The notes under the pieces: model-generated
Told to the model about the DNA's origin: nothing
Databases searched by the model: none
Seen by the model: the letters and a program-made list of their open reading frames with translations, nothing else
Assembly (NCBI RefSeq): GCF_900103425.1
Contig: NZ_FMXA01000003.1
Span: forward strand, 124,001-188,000
DNA length: 64,000 nt
From: Dialister histaminiformans
Lineage (GTDB): Bacteria; Bacillota; Negativicutes; Veillonellales; Dialisteraceae
Reading direction: 5' to 3'
Shown here: positions 2,766-60,722 of the stretch, piece after piece
Layout: the number at the start of each line of letters is the position of its first letter
Position numbering within the stretch: the first letter of the stretch is position 1
Program-made: the position numbers and the translations under genes

Positions 2766-3908
2766 TCAGTTAGCTGCCTGGAAAACTCCATCATTCATCT
2801 TCAGCAATACCAGATCAACTACCGGATCACGCTTTTCATTAAAGCTGAAAGTGCCGCAAACCCCGTTGAAATTTTTCATCTGGGCCATAGCATCGCGAAT
2901 CTTAGCCTTGTCGGTTGTTGTGCCGGCCCTCTTCATAGCGTCTACTACCATGTATACTCCATCATAGGCCCCGGCTGCAAACTGATCCGGTGCATGACCA
3001 TACTTCTTAGTGTAGTTGGCCACAAATGCCTTGGTCTTTTCATCATTGCGATTTGGAGACCACATAGAGGAAACATACACATTGTCAGCTGCCTTTCCGG
3101 CCAGTTTTCCCAGTTCAGGGGAAACGAATCCATTGTCACCCAGTACTGGCTGATTCATACCCATTTCACGCATCTTCTTCAGAATCAATGCCCCTTCCTG
3201 GTACAGAGAGCAAATGACTACTGCATCCGGATTCTTCCCCTGAATATTGGTCAGCTGAGCAGAGAAATCACTATCCTTACTTGCAAAAGTCTCTTTAGCT
3301 ACAATGTTGACTCCTTCTGCCTTCAGCGCCTGTTCGAAGTATTTTTCCGCCGTTACATGTTGTTCATTATCATTAGCATAGAGAATGGCTACATTCTTAT
3401 ATCCCAGCATAGCATGCGTTTTCTTTACCGTCTGTGGTATGTTCATCGATTCCGGTACGGAGTTTCTGAACAGATAATTGCCTCCATCCGTCATACCTTC
3501 CGCAGTAATGGAAATCCCCAGTGTAGGTATACCTGCCTGCTGTGTCATCGGCCATACCGCCTTAGCTTCATTGGAAGTCATTGGTCCAATGATAACCGAA
3601 ACATGATTTCCCATCATTTTCTGTGCTGCATTGATAGCATCCTGCGGAGCGCCTTTGGAATCCTCGGTCTGAATATTTACCTTAAATCCGCTCTTATTGA
3701 TTTCTTCAGCAGCCATATTGATTCCTTCCTGCTGAGAAATCCCATAGGCTGATGCACTGCCACTCAGTGCAGCGATAAATCCTATCTGTGCTGTATCATT
3801 GCTGCCAGAAGCAGCTCCCTCTTTGTTTCCACAGCCTGTCATGCCTGCTGCCACTGCTGCAATAATCATAGCGGCACCGATTGTTTTCACTGTCTTTGAA
3901 AATTTCAT
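2766..3908 (-). CDS. Branched-chain amino acid ABC transporter substrate-binding lipoprotein (LivJ/LivK-like)
   Basis: A 380-residue type I periplasmic-binding-fold lipoprotein. The signal peptide ends in a lipobox (GMTGC, Cys about residue 26) followed by a Ser/Gly-rich linker. The mature part starts with IGFIAALSGSASAYG, typical of the Leu/Ile/Val-binding Peripla_BP_6 family. It continues with the IGPMTSNEAKAV ligand loop and a DKDSDFSAQL-type segment. It is about 65-70% similar by eye to the protein encoded divergently at 4937. No permease or ATPase genes are next to it, so the partner transporter must lie elsewhere. The T-box leader upstream (3931-4310), with a likely Leu specifier, supports a role in leucine or general branched-chain uptake. 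The ATG at 3908 has a GGGAGGAAT ribosome site. Confidence 0.88.
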   Translation of the reverse strand: MKFSKTVKTIGAAMIIAAVAAGMTGCGNKEGAASGSNDTAQIGFIAALSGSASAYGISQQEGINMAAEEINKSGFKVNIQTEDSKGAPQDAINAAQKMMGNHVSVIIGPMTSNEAKAVWPMTQQAGIPTLGISITAEGMTDGGNYLFRNSVPESMNIPQTVKKTHAMLGYKNVAILYANDNEQHVTAEKYFEQALKAEGVNIVAKETFASKDSDFSAQLTNIQGKNPDAVVICSLYQEGALILKKMREMGMNQPVLGDNGFVSPELGKLAGKAADNVYVSSMWSPNRNDEKTKAFVANYTKKYGHAPDQFAAGAYDGVYMVVDAMKRAGTTTDKAKIRDAMAQMKNFNGVCGTFSFNEKRDPVVDLVLLKMNDGVFQAAN

Positions 3909-3930: not shown

Positions 3931-4310
3931 CAAAAAGCAGAAATCCTGCCCTTTATAACATGCCAGGGGCGCTTCTGCGCGGTACCACCCTGATTTATTT
4001 CTCATGGATATTTCAGAATCGCAGATATTTGCCTGGGTACGACCGGCCATATATTCCTGTAAAACGAATACAAAAAAGCCCCTGTCTGCCATCTCTGGCA
4101 GACAGGGGCGACATATCGCGGTACCACCCTGCATTATACTCTGAAAAAATCCTATCCGTAACGGGGATTGCCGCCCTCTCTACTACAGGTTCGATTGGGA
4201 GCTCTCAGGAGAGTTCGTCATATGCTTAATACCGGTTTGCACCATCCACCGGCTCTCTGTAATCTCCACATATCACTTTGCCCTGATCATCGCTTATCTC
4301 GTTTGAGATT
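3931..4310 (-). promoter_or_regulatory. T-box leader, probable leucine specifier (CTC), with duplicated antiterminator/terminator module
   Basis: The leader of the binding-protein gene at 3908. A stem I region (about 4190-4300) carries the characteristic AGAGAGCCGGTGG segment. The probable specifier is CTC (Leu), complementary to 4211-4213, in the context GAA-CTC-TCC. The first T-box sequence (AGGGTGGTACCGCG, complement at 4117-4130) is followed by a strong terminator at 4071-4110. A second, identical T-box sequence at 3978-3991 is followed by its own terminator at 3931-3978. The roughly 85 bases between the modules are too short for a second stem I. Uncharged tRNA-Leu is expected to favour readthrough; using two modules in series is inferred to tighten the switch. 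Confidence 0.87.
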
Positions 4311-4316
4311 GTTTGT

Positions 4317-4345
4317 ATTATACCGTTGCCCTCTTACCCTGTCAA
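4317..4345 (-). promoter_or_regulatory. Consensus sigma-A promoter of the Leu T-box transcript
   Basis: On the minus strand TTGACA (complement at 4340-4345) and TATAAT (complement at 4317-4322) are separated by 17 bases, a perfect match to consensus. Transcription would start near 4310, at the 5' end of the T-box leader. Confidence 0.85.
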
Positions 4346-4499
4346 CGATAAATTTAAATATTTATTTTTGTGAAATATATCTGGGAATATTCCTTTTGTT
4401 TGTTCAACCAAAAGGCTGTAGATTCACAGTATTTTTTTACATCTTCCCAAGTTTCCTATATCATAAAATAACATTTCTATAAATTTCAATGTTTTTATG

Positions 4500-4528
4500 T
4501 TGACAGGACATCAGGCTGCCTGTATACT
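4500..4528 (+). promoter_or_regulatory. Near-consensus sigma-A promoter of the Ile T-box transcript
   Basis: TTGACA at 4500-4505 and TATACT at 4523-4528 with a 17-base spacer. The T-box stem I begins a few bases after the expected start site. Confidence 0.85.
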
Positions 4529-4534
4529 TAGTAC

Positions 4535-4875
4535 AACTTTTACATGAAACAAACGATGAACGAGACGTTATGGGTCCAGAAGCTTCAGAGAGCCGGTGGG
4601 CGGTGAAAACCGGTGCTTTCTCCCATATAAATCACTCGAGAGTTTCCAGGCTGAAATTAATCAGGTCTGGCGGCCTTCCCCGTTATGGAACAGTGCTGGA
4701 TAGCCAAAGTACAATGCAAGGTGGTAACGCGCGAGTCGCCCTTGTCCGATTCAGGACAAGGGCGTTTATATTATTCCACCACATAACGGAGGCCAGTCTT
4801 AGCCAGAGTGAAAAATCAGAGTGGTAACGCGCACAGGCGCCTCTGGAAAGAGAAATCTTTCCAGAGGCTTTTTTC
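4535..4875 (+). promoter_or_regulatory. T-box leader, probable isoleucine specifier (ATC), with duplicated antiterminator/terminator module
   Basis: The leader of the binding-protein gene at 4937. Stem I contains AGAGAGCCGGTGG and a matching GAAAACCGGT arm. Aligned to the Leu leader on the opposite strand, the specifier position reads ATC (4631-4633), an Ile codon. The first T-box sequence, AAGGTGGTAACGCG (4718-4731), precedes a GC-rich hairpin at 4737-4770 with a weak T run. The second, AGAGTGGTAACGCG (4818-4831), precedes a strong terminator at 4839-4875. Both differ from the common form in having TAACGCG for TACCGCG. No second stem I fits between the two modules. Confidence 0.82.
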
Positions 4876-4936: not shown

Positions 4937-6085
4937 ATGAGCATGGGAAAAAAATGGATGAAGCGTGTAGCTGTAAGTATGATGGTGGCCTGCGCCATTG
5001 CTGGGCTCTCCGGCTGTGGTAACAAGGAAGATTCTTCCTCCGCATCTGGCAGCAATGTAGCTAAAGTAGGATTTATCAATGGCACCACCGGTGCAGTAGC
5101 AGGATATGGCCTGTCTGAACAACAGGGGCTCAACCTGGCAGTTGAAGAAATAAATAAAGAAGGAAAGATTCATTTAGAGGTAGAAGAACAGGATACCCAG
5201 GGACAGGTTTCCCAGGCAGTTAATGTGGTTCAAAAAATGATTGGTGACCATAAGTCTGTACTTATCGGACCGCTCATTTCCTCTGAATACAAGGCAGTAA
5301 GCCCTCTGGTTGAACAGGCTAAAATTCCTCTGGTCGGGGTAGCCATCACCGCTGAAGGCGCTACCGATAATTCCAATTATCTGTTCCGCGTCTGTGTTCC
5401 GGAATCTGAAAACATTCCGCAGACAGTAAATAAGACCCACGAAAAGCTGGGATATAAGACCGCAGCTATTCTTTATTCTTCCAATAATGAACATCAGGTT
5501 TCTGCCTACAAGGTATTCAAACGTTCTCTGGAAGCTGCCGGTGTAAAGATTGTAGACACAGAAACCTTTGCTGATAAGGACAGCGATTTCTCCGCACAGC
5601 TCACCAAGATTGAAGCGGCTAAGCCGGATGTAGTCGTAGTTGCCGCTTATTATCAGGAAGGCGCACTCATTCTGAAGAAGATGCGCGAAATGGGAATGAA
5701 TCAGCCGGTACTGGGCGACAATGGATTTATGTCCCCTGAGCTGACCAAGATGGCCGGTGCTGCCGCCAATAACGTTTATGTTTCTTCTATGTGGACTCCG
5801 GAAAGAAATAATCCGGAAACCAAAAACTTCGTTGAAAAGTTCAAGGCTAAGTATGGACAGGAACCTGATAATTTCGCAGCCTGCGCTTATGTAGCCATGA
5901 AGTATGTGGCTAAAGCTATGGAAACTGCAGGTACTACCACCGATACTGCAAAGATTCGTGATGCCATGGCCAATATCAAGAACTTTAATTCGGCTACCGG
6001 TCCGCTTTCTTTCAACAATAAGGGAACCCCGGACGTTGACCTGGTACTCCTGAAGATTGAAAACGGCCAGTATAAGGCTCAGTAA
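4937..6085 (+). CDS. Branched-chain amino acid ABC transporter substrate-binding lipoprotein (LivJ/LivK-like), second copy
   Basis: A 382-residue paralogue of the protein encoded divergently at 2766-3908. It has a signal peptide ending in a GLSGC lipobox (Cys about residue 30), a Ser-rich linker, then VGFINGTTGAVAGYG and the IGPLISSEYKAVSPLV ligand loop. The segment around LILKKMREMGMNQPVLGDNG is identical in both copies, pointing to a fairly recent duplication or gene conversion. The ATG follows an AGAGGGG ribosome site. It is a single-gene unit: T-box leader before, terminator at 6114 after. The Ile specifier in the leader suggests that the two paralogues respond to different amino acid shortages. 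Ligand specificity cannot be read from the sequence. Confidence 0.88.
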   Translation: MSMGKKWMKRVAVSMMVACAIAGLSGCGNKEDSSSASGSNVAKVGFINGTTGAVAGYGLSEQQGLNLAVEEINKEGKIHLEVEEQDTQGQVSQAVNVVQKMIGDHKSVLIGPLISSEYKAVSPLVEQAKIPLVGVAITAEGATDNSNYLFRVCVPESENIPQTVNKTHEKLGYKTAAILYSSNNEHQVSAYKVFKRSLEAAGVKIVDTETFADKDSDFSAQLTKIEAAKPDVVVVAAYYQEGALILKKMREMGMNQPVLGDNGFMSPELTKMAGAAANNVYVSSMWTPERNNPETKNFVEKFKAKYGQEPDNFAACAYVAMKYVAKAMETAGTTTDTAKIRDAMANIKNFNSATGPLSFNNKGTPDVDLVLLKIENGQYKAQ

Positions 6086-7350: not shown

Positions 7351-7379
7351 AAAGACTGTGAACCCTCACAGTCTTTTTT
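7351..7379 (+). terminator. Terminator directly abutting the ribosome site of the RuBisCO-like gene
   Basis: AAGACTGTGA / TCACAGTCTT stem with a tiny loop and six T's. The T run ends at 7379 and the GAAAGGAG ribosome site of the next gene begins at once, leaving no room for a promoter in between. Confidence 0.85.
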
Positions 7380-7392
7380 GAAAGGAGTCAGA

Positions 7393-8559
7393 ATGGATTC
7401 ACTTGATTTCGCAAAGCTGCATGCCGACTGTGAAACTTCTCATCGCTTTATGGTAATTTATCGTATATACAGCCGTTCCTGGGATGAAGCAAAAGCCACC
7501 GCATGGAATATTGCCATTGAACAGTCCGTGGAATGTCCCTACTGCATGGTGGAAGGTACGACAATCGCGGATACGATTGTCGGTAAAATAGAACAGCTCT
7601 CTCCCGATGGTCCGGAGCATTATCTGGCTGTCATTTCCTACACCCCGGAAGCTGTCGGTGCCGAATTTACGGAATTTATAAACATGCTCTTCGGAAACTC
7701 CAGCCTTCAGAAAGGCGTACGGCTCATAGCCTTCTGCCTCCCCGATGAAATGAACCATACATTCCCGGGCCCGCGTTTCGGACAGGATGGAATCCGACAG
7801 CTTACCGGAATCCACCAGGGACCGATTCTTATGTCTGCCATTAAGCCGCTGGGAACCCCGGTCAGCCGGCTGGCCCGCATGGTATACGATCTGGCCTGCG
7901 GAGGCTGCTCTATCATTAAGGATGACCACAACCTGTTTAATCAGACCTATGCTCCATTTGAAGAAAGGGTGCGGGCCTGTGTAGAAGCGGTAAATGCCGC
8001 CTATGAAGATTCCGGCAACAGGGCCCTGTATGTGGCCAACTGCAATGGGGATGGCGAAGAATCCATACAACGTGCCTGGAAAGCCAGAGAACTTGGCGCC
8101 GATGGCGTGATGATTTCCCCGGGGCTCTGTGGATTCGGTCCGCTTTTCCGACTGTCTTCCAACCCGGATTTTTCCCTTCCTCTGTTTCTCCATCCAAGCT
8201 TTGCCGGCCCGCTTACCGCTTCGGATGAGGCAGGCATCACTCCTTTCTGTTATTTCGGGCAGCTGGCGCGCCTGTCCGGTGCGGATGCTTCTGTATTTAC
8301 CAGTTTTTCCGGACGTTTCTCCTATACCCGGGAAGAATGCCAGTCCATCGCCAGGGCCGCCGGCATGGATATGAACGGAAGAAAATCCATGTTCCCAGTT
8401 CCCGCCGGCGGAATGAAATGGCAGCTATTCCCAGTCATGCATGAGGTCTATGGTGCCAATACCATATTCCTCGTAGGCGGAAATCTGCTGACACACAGTG
8501 ATTCCCTGAAAAACAGCGCCAGATTTTTCAGAGCGGAAATCGATAAGCTGAATTCATAA
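7393..8559 (+). CDS. RuBisCO-like protein (form IV type)
   Basis: A 388-residue RuBisCO large-subunit homologue. The ATG at 7393 follows AAAGGAGTCAG. Visible family features, in order: GPRFGQDGIR; an AIKPLG segment with the lysine equivalent to K175; a GGCSIIKDDHN segment corresponding to GGxxxxKDDE around the carbamylated K201; HPSF at the place of the substrate-binding His/Arg loop; and a C-terminal PVPAGGMKW...GANTIFLVGGNLLTHSD phosphate-binding region. The metal ligand equivalent to E204 is His, and the loop-6 Lys is absent (SGRFSYT), so it cannot be a CO2-fixing enzyme. Known form IV proteins act in methionine salvage (MtnW) or sugar-acid and sulfur pathways; no mtn genes are adjacent. 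The reaction is unknown. Confidence 0.85.
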   Translation: MDSLDFAKLHADCETSHRFMVIYRIYSRSWDEAKATAWNIAIEQSVECPYCMVEGTTIADTIVGKIEQLSPDGPEHYLAVISYTPEAVGAEFTEFINMLFGNSSLQKGVRLIAFCLPDEMNHTFPGPRFGQDGIRQLTGIHQGPILMSAIKPLGTPVSRLARMVYDLACGGCSIIKDDHNLFNQTYAPFEERVRACVEAVNAAYEDSGNRALYVANCNGDGEESIQRAWKARELGADGVMISPGLCGFGPLFRLSSNPDFSLPLFLHPSFAGPLTASDEAGITPFCYFGQLARLSGADASVFTSFSGRFSYTREECQSIARAAGMDMNGRKSMFPVPAGGMKWQLFPVMHEVYGANTIFLVGGNLLTHSDSLKNSARFFRAEIDKLNS

Positions 8560-8621: not shown

Positions 8622-9890
8622 TTATTCTGCCGGTGTTTGTTCCTGCAGGACATATTTTTTCTTCATCCGCATATTGCTGATTTGAATGACCGCCGACACG
8701 AGGAACGCCAGAGCGAGAAGACAGGCAAACAGCTGCAAAGTGGCCGTATAGCCACCGGTGTTTTCCTTCATCGCCGCTAGAATGACCGGACCAGCCACAC
8801 CGGCAATCCCCCATGCGGTGAGAATGCTGCCGTGAATGGATGCCAGCTGCCGTACCCCGAAAATATCAGACAGGAAGGCAGGCATACAGGAAAATCCACC
8901 GCCATAGCAGCTGATAATCAAAAGCACCAGTGCCTGGAATATCAGGCCTTCTGTAGTGACTGACAGCGCGTAAAAGGCTGCTACTTCCAACGCAAAGAAC
9001 ACCAGATAAGTCACCCCACGGCCAATCCAATCAGAGACAGTGGACCATACGATACGTCCGCCGCCATTGACTACCCCGATAATCCCTACCAGGGACGCGG
9101 CCTGCGCCGGAGTCATACCAATTACTTCCTGAGCCATAGGCGAAGCTACCGCCAGAAGCCCGATACCGCAGGTAATATTGGTAAAGAAAATCCACCACAG
9201 CGCATAAAATTTCCACGTATGAAGCGCTTCACGGCGTGTCATCTGCGGTCCCAGCATGGTCCGCTTATTCCCCCGGGCCGCTTCTTCCTTCAGTACATCT
9301 TCCAGGGACTGCTCGATTTCCCCCTTGCGCGGAGGACGAAGATACGATGCGGACGCGCACATAATCACAAAATATACACATCCCATAATCAGAAAATTAT
9401 TGACCAGTCCATAGGCGGCCGTAAGATGCTGCATAACCGGTCCGGCAATCAGTGCGGCAAATCCAAATCCCATGATGGCCATACCAGTGGCAAATCCTCT
9501 GTGCCTTGGAAACCACTTGACCAGAGTGGATACCGGAGTAATATATCCGGTTCCCAGACCAATCCCTCCGATAAATCCGTAAAACAGATACAGCAGAGGC
9601 GTGCTCTTCACTGATATGGCATAACCGGTTCCCAGCATCCCCAGGGCAAAGAAACATGCCGAAAGCAGGCCAGAGCGGGAAGGCCCCATGCGCTCCACAA
9701 AACCACCAAGGAACCCTGCCGACAGCCCCAGGAAAAGAATGGCAATAGAAAATGCCCATGTTGTCTGTCCCAGAGATAATCCCATAGCTGCCATAACCGG
9801 CTTGGTAAGTACACTCCAGGCATATACGCTGCCAATGCAGATATGTATGCCCACTGCTGATAAAGCGATCAGCCATCTGTTTCGTTTCAT
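8622..9890 (-). CDS. MFS transporter of the oxalate/formate antiporter (OFA) family
   Basis: A 422-residue membrane protein with 12 predicted helices. The ATG at 9890 has an AGGAGGTAG ribosome site; the upstream extension overlaps the leader RNA. OFA traits are SVYAWSVLTKP in helix 1, GFLGGFVERMGPS in the helix 2-3 loop, GFIGGIGLGTGYITPVSTLVKWFPRHRGFATG across helices 4-5, and RPP at the central loop. OxlT is the reference oxalate/formate exchanger, and YhjX-type relatives respond to pyruvate or formate. A probable ZTP riboswitch in the leader ties expression to folate/one-carbon status, which fits transport of formate or a related acid, though the substrate itself is inference. Confidence 0.85.
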   Translation of the reverse strand: MKRNRWLIALSAVGIHICIGSVYAWSVLTKPVMAAMGLSLGQTTWAFSIAILFLGLSAGFLGGFVERMGPSRSGLLSACFFALGMLGTGYAISVKSTPLLYLFYGFIGGIGLGTGYITPVSTLVKWFPRHRGFATGMAIMGFGFAALIAGPVMQHLTAAYGLVNNFLIMGCVYFVIMCASASYLRPPRKGEIEQSLEDVLKEEAARGNKRTMLGPQMTRREALHTWKFYALWWIFFTNITCGIGLLAVASPMAQEVIGMTPAQAASLVGIIGVVNGGGRIVWSTVSDWIGRGVTYLVFFALEVAAFYALSVTTEGLIFQALVLLIISCYGGGFSCMPAFLSDIFGVRQLASIHGSILTAWGIAGVAGPVILAAMKENTGGYTATLQLFACLLALAFLVSAVIQISNMRMKKKYVLQEQTPAE

Positions 9891-9931
9891 TCCGCTACCT
9901 CCTGAAAGTCCTTGAAGAGGCACCGGCCAAT

Positions 9932-10028
9932 AAAAAACGCCTGAGCCTCTTCAGCCCAGACGGTCGGCAATACCAGATTCTGCAGTCCACGTGGTTGATT
10001 CCACTGTATCCGTCAGTCCTGCAGTTCC
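9932..10028 (-). promoter_or_regulatory. Probable ZTP (pfl) riboswitch with intrinsic terminator
   Basis: On the minus strand a CTGCAG-GACTGACGGATACA segment is followed by the hairpin GTGGAATCAACCAC, GTGGA, and a second CTGCAG that pairs with the first. After a short linker comes GCCGACCGTCTGGGC, matching the conserved 3' pseudoknot domain (CCGCCTGGGC) of ZTP/ZMP aptamers. CGTCTGGGC also pairs with GCTCAGGCG just before six T's (to 9932), so terminator formation would break the aptamer. That is the layout of ZTP ON-switches. The ATG of the MFS gene is 42 bases further. The assignment rests on motif recall, not a covariance search. Confidence 0.78.
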
Positions 10029-10126
10029 TTTAAATTATGCCATCATCATATCATTCCCTACCAAATATGTCAATTCGATTTTACAGCATACACAACATAT
10101 GGTAGTTTCATTAATAAAGATAAAAT

Positions 10127-19619: not shown

Positions 19620-20558
19620 TTATTCTGCCTTAATAAAACCAGGTGTAGAAAGATATCTATCGCCATTATCCGGAAGGATGGCTACCACGGTCTTCCCTTT
19701 GTTTTCCGGCCTTGCTGCCACCTGAAGCGCTGCGTGCAGTGCTGCACCTCCGGAAATTCCAACAAGGAATCCTTCTTTTCTTATAAATTCTCTGGCAGTG
19801 GAATAAGCTTCCTCTGTGGTAGCATTGAGAATTTCATCATAAATATTTCTGTCCAAAGTATTAGGCATAAAATTGGTCCCAATCCCCTGAATCTTATGTG
19901 GACCAGGCTTACCTTCTGCAAGAAGTGGAGAGTCTGCCGGTTCTACTGCAATCACCTTAATTTCCGGCTTCTGACTCTTAAGATAACGACCGGTTCCGGA
20001 AAGTGTCCCACCGGTACCTACACCGGCAACCAGGAAATCTACTTCTCCATCTGTATCCCGATAAATTTCTGGTCCAGTTGTCTTTTCATGGATAGCGGGG
20101 TTAGCCGGATTGTCAAACTGTTCAGGAATGAAGCTTCCTGGAATGGATGCTGCCAGTTCTTTAGCCTTTTCTACTGATCCTGCAATTCCCAGTTTAGCCG
20201 GTGTTAATACTACTTCTGCACCATAGGCAGCAATCAGCGTACGGCGTTCTACTGACATAGATTCCGGCATAACCATAATCGCACGATAGCCCTTAACAGC
20301 CGCTACAGCTGCCAGGCCAATGCCTGTGTTACCGCTGGTCGGTTCAATAATAACGCCACCTTTTTTCAGAACACCTCTCGCTTCAGCATCTTCAATCATA
20401 GAAAGGGCAATTCGATCCTTTATGGATCCCGCCGGATTAAAACTTTCCAGCTTAACCAGAAGGCGGGCTGGCAGATTTTTATCTGCTGTAAAATGTACTG
20501 GTTCCATAATCGGTGTATTCCCAATGAGTTCGAGTATGCTTCTGTAAATCTTAGACAT
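19620..20558 (-). CDS. cysK: Cysteine synthase A (O-acetylserine sulfhydrylase)
   Basis: A 312-residue fold-type II PLP enzyme making cysteine from O-acetylserine and sulfide. The PLP lysine lies in KLESFNPAGSIKDRIAL (Lys about 47). Also visible are the substrate loop EPTSGNTGIGLA, the phosphate-binding GVGTGGTLSGTGRYL, and the late GISGGAALHAAL and LPDNGDRYLST. Length and motifs are typical of CysK. It follows cysE with a 194-base gap that contains no clear terminator, so both probably depend on the Cys T-box upstream of cysE. CysE and CysK also associate physically in the cysteine synthase complex in many bacteria. Confidence 0.95.
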   Translation of the reverse strand: MSKIYRSILELIGNTPIMEPVHFTADKNLPARLLVKLESFNPAGSIKDRIALSMIEDAEARGVLKKGGVIIEPTSGNTGIGLAAVAAVKGYRAIMVMPESMSVERRTLIAAYGAEVVLTPAKLGIAGSVEKAKELAASIPGSFIPEQFDNPANPAIHEKTTGPEIYRDTDGEVDFLVAGVGTGGTLSGTGRYLKSQKPEIKVIAVEPADSPLLAEGKPGPHKIQGIGTNFMPNTLDRNIYDEILNATTEEAYSTAREFIRKEGFLVGISGGAALHAALQVAARPENKGKTVVAILPDNGDRYLSTPGFIKAE

Positions 20559-20752: not shown

Positions 20753-21433
20753 TCAAACAGGCCCCAAATTTCCTTTCGATTCCGTCTTCAACAAAAGAAT
20801 TTCCTTGCGGAGAGTATCTACCTCATGCTGAAGCTTTCCAATCTGTTCTTCAATAGGATCCGGTAGTTTATTGTGGTTAAGATCCACATCCGATTCATCA
20901 TGATGATGAACCCGTTTTCCACGTTCGGCCACCACATGCCCGGGAATACCAACCACTGTCGCATATGGAGGAACTTCTTTAAGTACTACGGAACCTGCCC
21001 CGATTTTTGCTCCTTCCCCAACAGTAAAGGATCCCAGAACCTTAGCTCCGCAAGCCACCACAACATAGTCTTTCAAAGTCGGGTGTCTTTTTCCCTTCTC
21101 TTTTCCTGTCCCCCCAAGAGTAACCCCCTGATACAGTGTTACATTATCTCCTATGACTGTAGTTTCACCAATGACAATCCCCATTCCATGGTCAATAAAC
21201 AATCCTTTCCCTATTCTTGCCCCCGGATGAATTTCAATTCCGGTAAGCATTCGGGCAATATGAGAAATAAGTCTGGCCAATACAAACCATTCGTGCCTGT
21301 AAAAAAAATGCCCGATGCGATAAGCCCATATGGCATGAAGCCCGGGATAACAAAGAAAGATTTCCATCCAGGATTTAGCAGCTGGATCTCTTTCCCTGAC
21401 AACCCGCATGTCATTACGCAACGTATCAAACAT
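20753..21433 (-). CDS. cysE: Serine O-acetyltransferase
   Basis: A 226-residue left-handed beta-helix acetyltransferase making O-acetylserine from serine and acetyl-CoA. It starts at MFDTLRND (21433), 9 bases after an AAAGGA site; the longer frame upstream runs into the T-box terminator and is not translated. Visible features: [12 protein letters not shown] followed by [24 protein letters not shown], with the catalytic His and Asp region, then hexapeptide repeats with [18 protein letters not shown] and [16 protein letters not shown]. The tail (about 180-226) is acidic and coiled-coil-like. First gene of the cysE-cysK operon. Confidence 0.93.
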
Positions 21434-21456
21434 GGTCATTCTTCCTTTCCTGCAAT

Positions 21457-21700
21457 AAAAAAAGACCGTCTCTACAGAGACGATCTGACGCGGTTCCACT
21501 CTGATTGCAGTCATTATTAAATAACTGCCACTCAATCCGGTAACGGCGGTTCCCGGAAGCATTTACTTATTTTCAATGCCTCAGCTATCCAGATGCATTC
21601 CATCCAGGTCTGTTTCGGTGCCGACTTTCAGCCGATGATCAGCACTCTCTGAACCACATTGCCGGTGTACTTGTTCTGGTCGTTGCTTTTATTTGTTGAT
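21457..21700 (-). promoter_or_regulatory. T-box leader with cysteine specifier (TGC)
   Basis: On the minus strand the leader carries an AGAGAGTGCTG stem I segment, a specifier TGC (complement at 21595-21597) in the context GAA-TGC-ATC, and the T-box sequence AGAGTGGAACCGCG (complement at 21489-21502). The terminator at 21457-21486 ends in seven T's just upstream of cysE. Uncharged tRNA-Cys should allow cysE-cysK transcription. Only one antiterminator/terminator module is present, unlike the Leu and Ile leaders. Confidence 0.9.
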
Positions 21701-60432: not shown

Positions 60433-60469
60433 TGGTTCTGCATGGTATTGTCCCATGAGCTTTTTATTG

Positions 60470-60546
60470 CTCCCTGCGTAAGTCTTAACTCAATCAGGTG
60501 CCAAGGGTTTAGACCAGGTCATTCTCAACATATAGTTCCCCTGCAA
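60470..60546 (-). promoter_or_regulatory. TPP riboswitch (THI element) of the thiM operon
   Basis: On the minus strand: GCAGGGGAAC at the 5' end, TTGAGAATGACC in place of the usual CTGAGA, AAACCCTTGGCACCTGAT, and GACTTACGCAGGGAG closing helix P1. These are the conserved aptamer blocks in the right order. With bound TPP, terminator 60405-60432 should form and stop the salvage genes. Confidence 0.92.
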
Positions 60547-60603
60547 TAAGCTGATTTAATTTTATCACAGTTATGAGCCAAAGGCTCCTCTGTTTTTTCA
60601 CAC

Positions 60604-60648: not shown

Positions 60649-60722
60649 TGGAGCGGATGAAGGGAGTCGAACCCTCCTGTCCAGCTTGGGAAGCTGGCGT
60701 TCTACCGATGAACTACACCCGC
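60649..60722 (-). tRNA. tRNA-Gly (anticodon CCC)
   Basis: The minus strand folds as a full cloverleaf. The 7-bp acceptor stem starts GCGGGTG, the D-arm contains GTTCATCGGTAGAAC, the anticodon stem CCAGC/GCTGG encloses the loop TTCCCAA (anticodon CCC, reading GGG), the T-arm is AGGGTTCGACTCCCT-like, and CCA is encoded. Closely similar to E. coli tRNA-Gly(CCC). Confidence 0.95.

Follow-up and report, generated by a model that had tools for sequence, protein, structure and literature searches.

What is gained by a leader that reads a single tRNA and then meets two switches in a row, and why should such leaders stand back to back in front of two related genes? The question is raised by positions 3931-4875 of the window, as we call the 64,000-nucleotide stretch of Dialister histaminiformans DNA analyzed here, which belongs to a 1.7 Mb draft assembly; this region of about 1 kb lies between two binding-protein genes and contains two divergent T-box leaders. 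We consider it likely that each leader is a partly duplicated transcriptional T-box in which one tRNA would work two serial switches, and that the binding proteins would feed a shared LivHMGF permease.

Two divergent leaders between paralogous genes

The genes at 2766..3908 (minus strand) and 4937..6085 (plus strand) both encode branched-chain amino acid ABC transporter substrate-binding proteins of the Peripla_BP_6 family (Pfam PF13458, E-values of 2.5e-66 and 3.4e-65, respectively), and LIV-type relatives were returned for both by sequence search. An earlier sequence-only reading of the region had taken them for paralogs, and they are indeed 60% identical. From their leaders and from the protein tree, the first is the predicted Leu-responsive paralog and the second the predicted Ile-responsive one.

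To describe the leaders, 25 tRNA-reading domains of the family (stem I, stem II and the IIA/B element) were aligned and a covariance model, R1, was built from the alignment. Both window leaders are in the R1 training set, so their independent support is that of the Rfam T-box model RF00230, which matched on both strands: minus 4299-4101 with 103.8 bits, above the gathering score of 93, and plus 4547-4746 with 90.9 bits (E-value 2.9e-20), just below it; of the two, only the minus leader passes this score outright.

On the minus strand, a promoter-like site read directly from the sequence (4317..4345; TTGACA at 4345-4340, a 17-base spacer and TATAAT at 4322-4317) precedes a reading domain at 4156..4307 composed of stem I, stem II and a IIA/B element with CGTTA (R1 score of 116.7 bits, within the training set). 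Its specifier is CUC (Leu; 4211..4213), and the base after it is U instead of the usual purine. T-box core 1 (4117..4130) and core 2 (3978..3991) both read AGGGUGGUACCGCG and carry AGGGTGGTACCGCG; they are 139 nt apart, with a linker of 76 nt between the modules. Terminator 1 (4072..4109) is a 13-bp stem followed by UUUUUU, with a folding energy of -33.9 kcal/mol including the core, and its 5' arm is the 3' strand of the antiterminator. In module 2 the core has CGCCCCU as antiterminator partner (-8.7 kcal/mol) and folding gives a weak terminator 2 at 3932..3977, made of CAGAA..UUCUG and GCCC..GGGC stems with an internal loop, then UUUUU; the unconstrained fold of this module keeps the antiterminator at -17.5, versus -15.0 kcal/mol for the terminator-like fold. 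Since this terminator is weak, the minus leader may have a single working off-switch; the counterparts of this module in the family genomes G005 and G007 have strong terminators. A tRNA-Leu(GAG) with discriminator A, ending in ACCA, is encoded in the same genome, and matches both the CUC specifier and the UGGU bulge.

On the plus strand, direct reading gives a promoter-like site at 4500..4528 (TTGACA at 4500-4505, a 17-base spacer and TATACT at 4523-4528) and the reading domain, again with stem I, stem II and IIA/B with CGTTA, occupies 4539..4688 (R1 score of 113.1 bits, within the training set). The specifier, placed by the family alignment and the covarying fold, is AUC (Ile; 4631..4633) and the next base is A. 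T-box core 1 (4718..4731) is AAGGUGGUAACGCG (AAGGTGGTAACGCG) and core 2 (4818..4831) is AGAGUGGUAACGCG (AGAGTGGTAACGCG), with a core-to-core distance of 100 nt and a linker of 54 nt. Helix A1 of the antiterminator reads AAGG/CCUU in the first module and AGAG/CUCU in the second, a compensatory change that leaves the pairing intact in each. As judged by folding, terminator 1 (4737..4772) pairs CGCCCTTGTCC with GGACAAGGGCG and ends in an interrupted U tract (UUUAUAUU), and terminator 2 (4839..4874) is a 13-bp stem followed by UUUUUU (-27.3 kcal/mol including the core). No tRNA-Ile(GAU) was found in the draft assembly, where Rfam gave 49 tRNA hits with neither Ile(GAU) nor Ala among the typed ones; it was probably lost from the draft along with the rRNA operons.

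All four T-box sequences noticed previously, two per strand, are thus present, and each of them contains UGGU. Two antiterminator/terminator units had been proposed for each leader, and this stands for three modules, in which mutual exclusion of the two structures is clear; in minus module 2 the antiterminator is intact but the terminator is poor and the exclusion weak. Stem I with its AGAGA and GGUGNRA loops and the specifier bulge was found in both leaders, as were stem II and the IIA/B pseudoknot element with CGUUA (a covarying helix in alignment columns 124-157, then columns 158-170). In the stem III region the purine and AA flanks are kept, and the helix is broken or has at most 2-3 bp.

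Several other elements of the window were recorded. A single T-box at 21473-21692 (minus), with a likely UGC (Cys) specifier and a UGGA bulge, precedes cysE- and cysK-like genes (20753-21562 and 19620-20558) and has a full stem III, unlike the divergent pair. A ZTP riboswitch (9947-10030, minus) immediately precedes a major-facilitator gene (8622-9923) whose product passes the NCBIfam L-lactate transporter cut-off and would not be expected as a ZTP target, and a TPP riboswitch (60454-60552, minus) adjoins a tRNA-Gly(CCC) gene (60649-60722). Downstream of a glycosyltransferase gene, 7378-8559 (plus) encodes a RuBisCO-like protein related to the methionine-salvage enolase MtnW, under the MtnW cut-off.

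Doubled switches across the family and beyond

The extent of the doubling was studied in 30 paralog leaders selected for similarity of the encoded protein, irrespective of T-box pattern. Two exact cores were present in 25 of them, a one-base-altered first core in two, three cores in one, a degenerate first core in one and a single core in one; one reader thus stands before two or three antiterminator/terminator modules in 29/30, three of these with an altered first core. The triple case is a binding-protein leader (L033:1029-1480, G011:C13) in which a single CUC reader precedes three T-box modules spaced by 93 and 90 nt. Both modules keep UGGU, with one exception among the family cores, as well as the purine motif and the AA before the core, and each has a consensus of its own. 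Helix A1 varies in sequence while its pairing is kept in both modules, which is not expected under drift without selection; at the level of sequence, maintenance of module 1 and module 2 alike is evident from these compensatory changes. Nearly all the family terminator hairpins examined, which are strong and have a U tract, use the 3' strand of the antiterminator.

These data bear on the possibility that module 2 is no more than a redundant copy or a remnant in decay, module 1 alone being regulatory. The weak terminator of minus module 2 agrees with such a decay, and so does a paralog in the window's own genome (L026) with a single module; nevertheless, we find it unlikely, given that at least two modules are kept in 29 of the 30 leaders from four genera (one with a degenerate first core), that the A1 helices covary in both modules and that the core alterations fall in module 1, not in module 2.

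Across 61 genomes from the order there were 47 occurrences of two cores 82-142 nt apart, mostly in Dialisteraceae, and a backwards control gave none, so the pattern is not due to chance. The pattern was present in 15/61 genomes of the order and in 55/398 of the phylum (36/267 genera), where the control gave two hits; a layout unique to this window is refuted by these counts. At three further places (L001:1493-1800 of G000:C36, L095 and L108), two T-box cores are merely 64 to 84 nt apart, and the T-box itself is paired in the hairpin that follows the first core (the GGTGGTACC region with GGTATCACC in L095 and L108).

T-boxes with duplicated terminator-antiterminator elements (partially tandem) were reportedly described by Vitreschak et al. 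in 2008, and the leaders of the window are confirmed as members of this known, mechanistically unexplained class. In common with that class, they place a single stem I ahead of two T-box/antiterminator/terminator modules separated by some 85-140 nt; what differs in Dialisteraceae is that the layout covers nearly a whole paralog family, in which there are Ile, Leu and Val specifiers, a triple case and a divergent pair. The modes of action of partially tandem T-boxes are unknown according to a review (PMC7583486). Full tandem T-boxes, such as those of trp and ilv operons, have a complete sensor per unit (PMC12452182); they likewise place serial transcriptional checks on one transcript, whereas the leaders of the window repeat the switch only and keep a single sensor.

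One reader and a proposed hand-over of the tRNA

Model R1 detected exactly one reader in each of the two leaders, in agreement with the earlier proposal of one stem I and two modules per leader. A second stem I, hidden between the modules, was looked for in the 76- and 54-nt linkers, and neither the AGAGA motif nor an R1 match was found there; a full tandem T-box, with a complete stem I per unit, was accordingly rejected for both leaders.

From the anatomy, specifiers, conservation, covariation and gene content, which are read in the sequences themselves, we infer the following course of events. The reading domain would capture one cognate tRNA through its anticodon, tRNA-Leu(GAG) in the minus leader and tRNA-Ile(GAU) in the plus leader, and RNA polymerase would then meet the two antiterminator/terminator switches serially. 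The uncharged tRNA would have to keep the antiterminators open one after the other with its free 3' end, the same tethered tRNA serving both: when the polymerase has left switch 1 behind, the terminator hairpin there, as the more stable structure, may re-form and free the CCA end, and this end would shift to switch 2, about 100 nt downstream. Expression would then take place only if the tRNA is uncharged at both successive checks, with less leaky read-through as the expected outcome. In the part of the literature covered, no demonstration of a tRNA hand-over between modules was found. The stem III region has been called indispensable (PMC7583486); with the helix missing or at most 2-3 bp long in both leaders, this counts against the serial opening by one tRNA that we favor.

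The same observation weighs on a second alternative, in which each module has its own tRNA, one bound through stem I and the other through its CCA end only, so that module 2 would sense the total of uncharged tRNAs with discriminator A. The UGGU cores, with their one exception, can pair with any tRNA ending in ACCA, and there is a single reader per leader, as this arrangement would have it; however, with stem III nearly absent and, according to published work, no appreciable tRNA binding by an antiterminator lacking it (PMC7583486), the binding of an untethered tRNA should be weak, and we hold this alternative to be quite improbable. An idle second module and a second, untethered tRNA are both less likely than serial opening by one tethered tRNA.

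Specifiers and history of the paralog pair

The consensus fold of the 25 aligned reading domains has 25 pairs, with compensatory changes in 19 of them, and its covarying lower stem sets the place of the specifier: alignment columns 110-112, just 5' of the base adjoining that stem. In the 25 readers, columns 111-112 are an invariant UC and no base other than A, C or G stands in column 110, giving the forms AUC (Ile), CUC (Leu) and GUC (Val). Leu and Ile codons had been assigned to the two leaders from their sequences, an assignment that a covariance alignment could have displaced; CUC (minus) and AUC (plus) were retained. It is very improbable that the specifiers lie in another frame (e.g. ACU or UCU in the minus leader, AAU or UCA in the plus leader) and the genes do not answer Leu and Ile, for although U and not a purine follows the minus specifier and the bulge is long enough to allow frame shifts, the column pattern just described, the coding of branched-chain amino acid binding proteins, a place that fits the TBDB rule (PMC7778990) and the presence of tRNA-Leu(GAG) in the genome all speak against it.

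The history of the pair was read from a maximum-likelihood tree of the 30 paralog proteins. The minus (CUC) protein clusters with CUC-leader proteins, those of G005 and G007 (support of 100/98), and the plus (AUC) protein is found among AUC proteins, adjoining one GUC protein. The association between specifier and clade needs 7 changes on the tree, a number as low as which was reached in 0/200 shuffles. As the tree places the two proteins of the window in different ancient clades, the paralogs, their specifiers and the doubled modules predate the window genome, and a recent local duplication of the pair is ruled out. Duplication followed by regulatory divergence, as previously suggested for the pair, therefore fails as a local event; judged from the tree, the Leu/Ile split is old, and regulatory divergence after duplication holds family-wide, with about seven specifier changes in 30 paralogs. 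No T-box cores on opposite strands were found close together at the other family loci examined, and the head-to-head arrangement looks like the sole local feature of the pair.

The operon of a probable shared permease

One adjacent livH-livM pair is present in the window genome, in a livHMGF operon without a binding protein. Its leader (L165:393-720; G000:C6:13692-14020) contains two readers, AUC then CUC (R1 scores of 70.6 and 44.9 bits), followed by one switch; R1 was built without the upstream readers of livHMGF leaders, and Rfam detects the second half alone (64.1 bits). The order is CUC then AUC in G002, with one switch, and also in G005, G006, G007, G008, G009 and G010, with two switches. 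In all, two-reader livHMGF leaders were found with R1 in 8/12 family genomes, outside the window (L163, L088, L100, L101, L103, L113 and L091, besides L165). The layouts within one regulon, given as readers by switches, are 1x1, 1x2, 1x3, 2x1 and 2x2.

A search of the phylum for two readers with the pattern AGAGA...CGTTA...AGAGA gave hits no commoner than those of the control. The T-box-like phylum hits included L177, L178, L187, G061 and G270; the first three of these were rescored with R1 and had one reader each, and none of the other order and phylum hits rescored in this way had two. Within our sample, the two-reader layout is thus confirmed only at the livHMGF operon of Dialisteraceae. 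To our knowledge, and within the part of the literature covered, no T-box has been described in which a single switch is preceded by two complete reading domains.

We lean towards the idea that reader and switch are independently multiplied modules, and that the livHMGF leader is a two-input T-box through which uncharged tRNA-Leu or tRNA-Ile would turn on a common permease. An OR gate appears more plausible than an AND gate, as there is one switch for two readers in two genomes and a shortage of either amino acid calls for the permease. The two-reader leader also supports binding proteins that answer one amino acid each and a permease that answers two: interchangeable binding proteins, each induced by shortage of its own branched-chain amino acid, would feed one LivHMGF permease, whose own leader would read both Leu and Ile. 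In E. coli, the binding proteins LivJ and LivK have the LivHMGF permease in common, which is similar in that multiple binding proteins serve one permease; in Dialisteraceae, unlike E. coli, the regulation would be through tRNA-reading leaders, with one amino acid per binding protein. A T-box able to answer two tRNAs, which is our proposal for the livHMGF leader, also has a precedent in the two-codon T-box, of which there is a Clostridium acetobutylicum case; there one stem I has two possible specifier frames, whereas livHMGF leaders contain one stem I/II domain for CUC and a separate one for AUC. The multi-tRNA specificity of T-boxes is treated elsewhere (PMC7778990).

Significance

Dialisteraceae provide natural sets of leaders with one, two or three switches, one or two readers, and Ile, Leu or Val specifiers in front of homologous genes. 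With these sets, three questions may be put to direct test: can two antiterminators be served successively by the same tRNA, does doubling sharpen the response or reduce leakage, and is the logic of two readers ahead of one switch OR or AND? Moreover, the specifiers make a testable prediction of the amino acid that each orphan binding protein would import.
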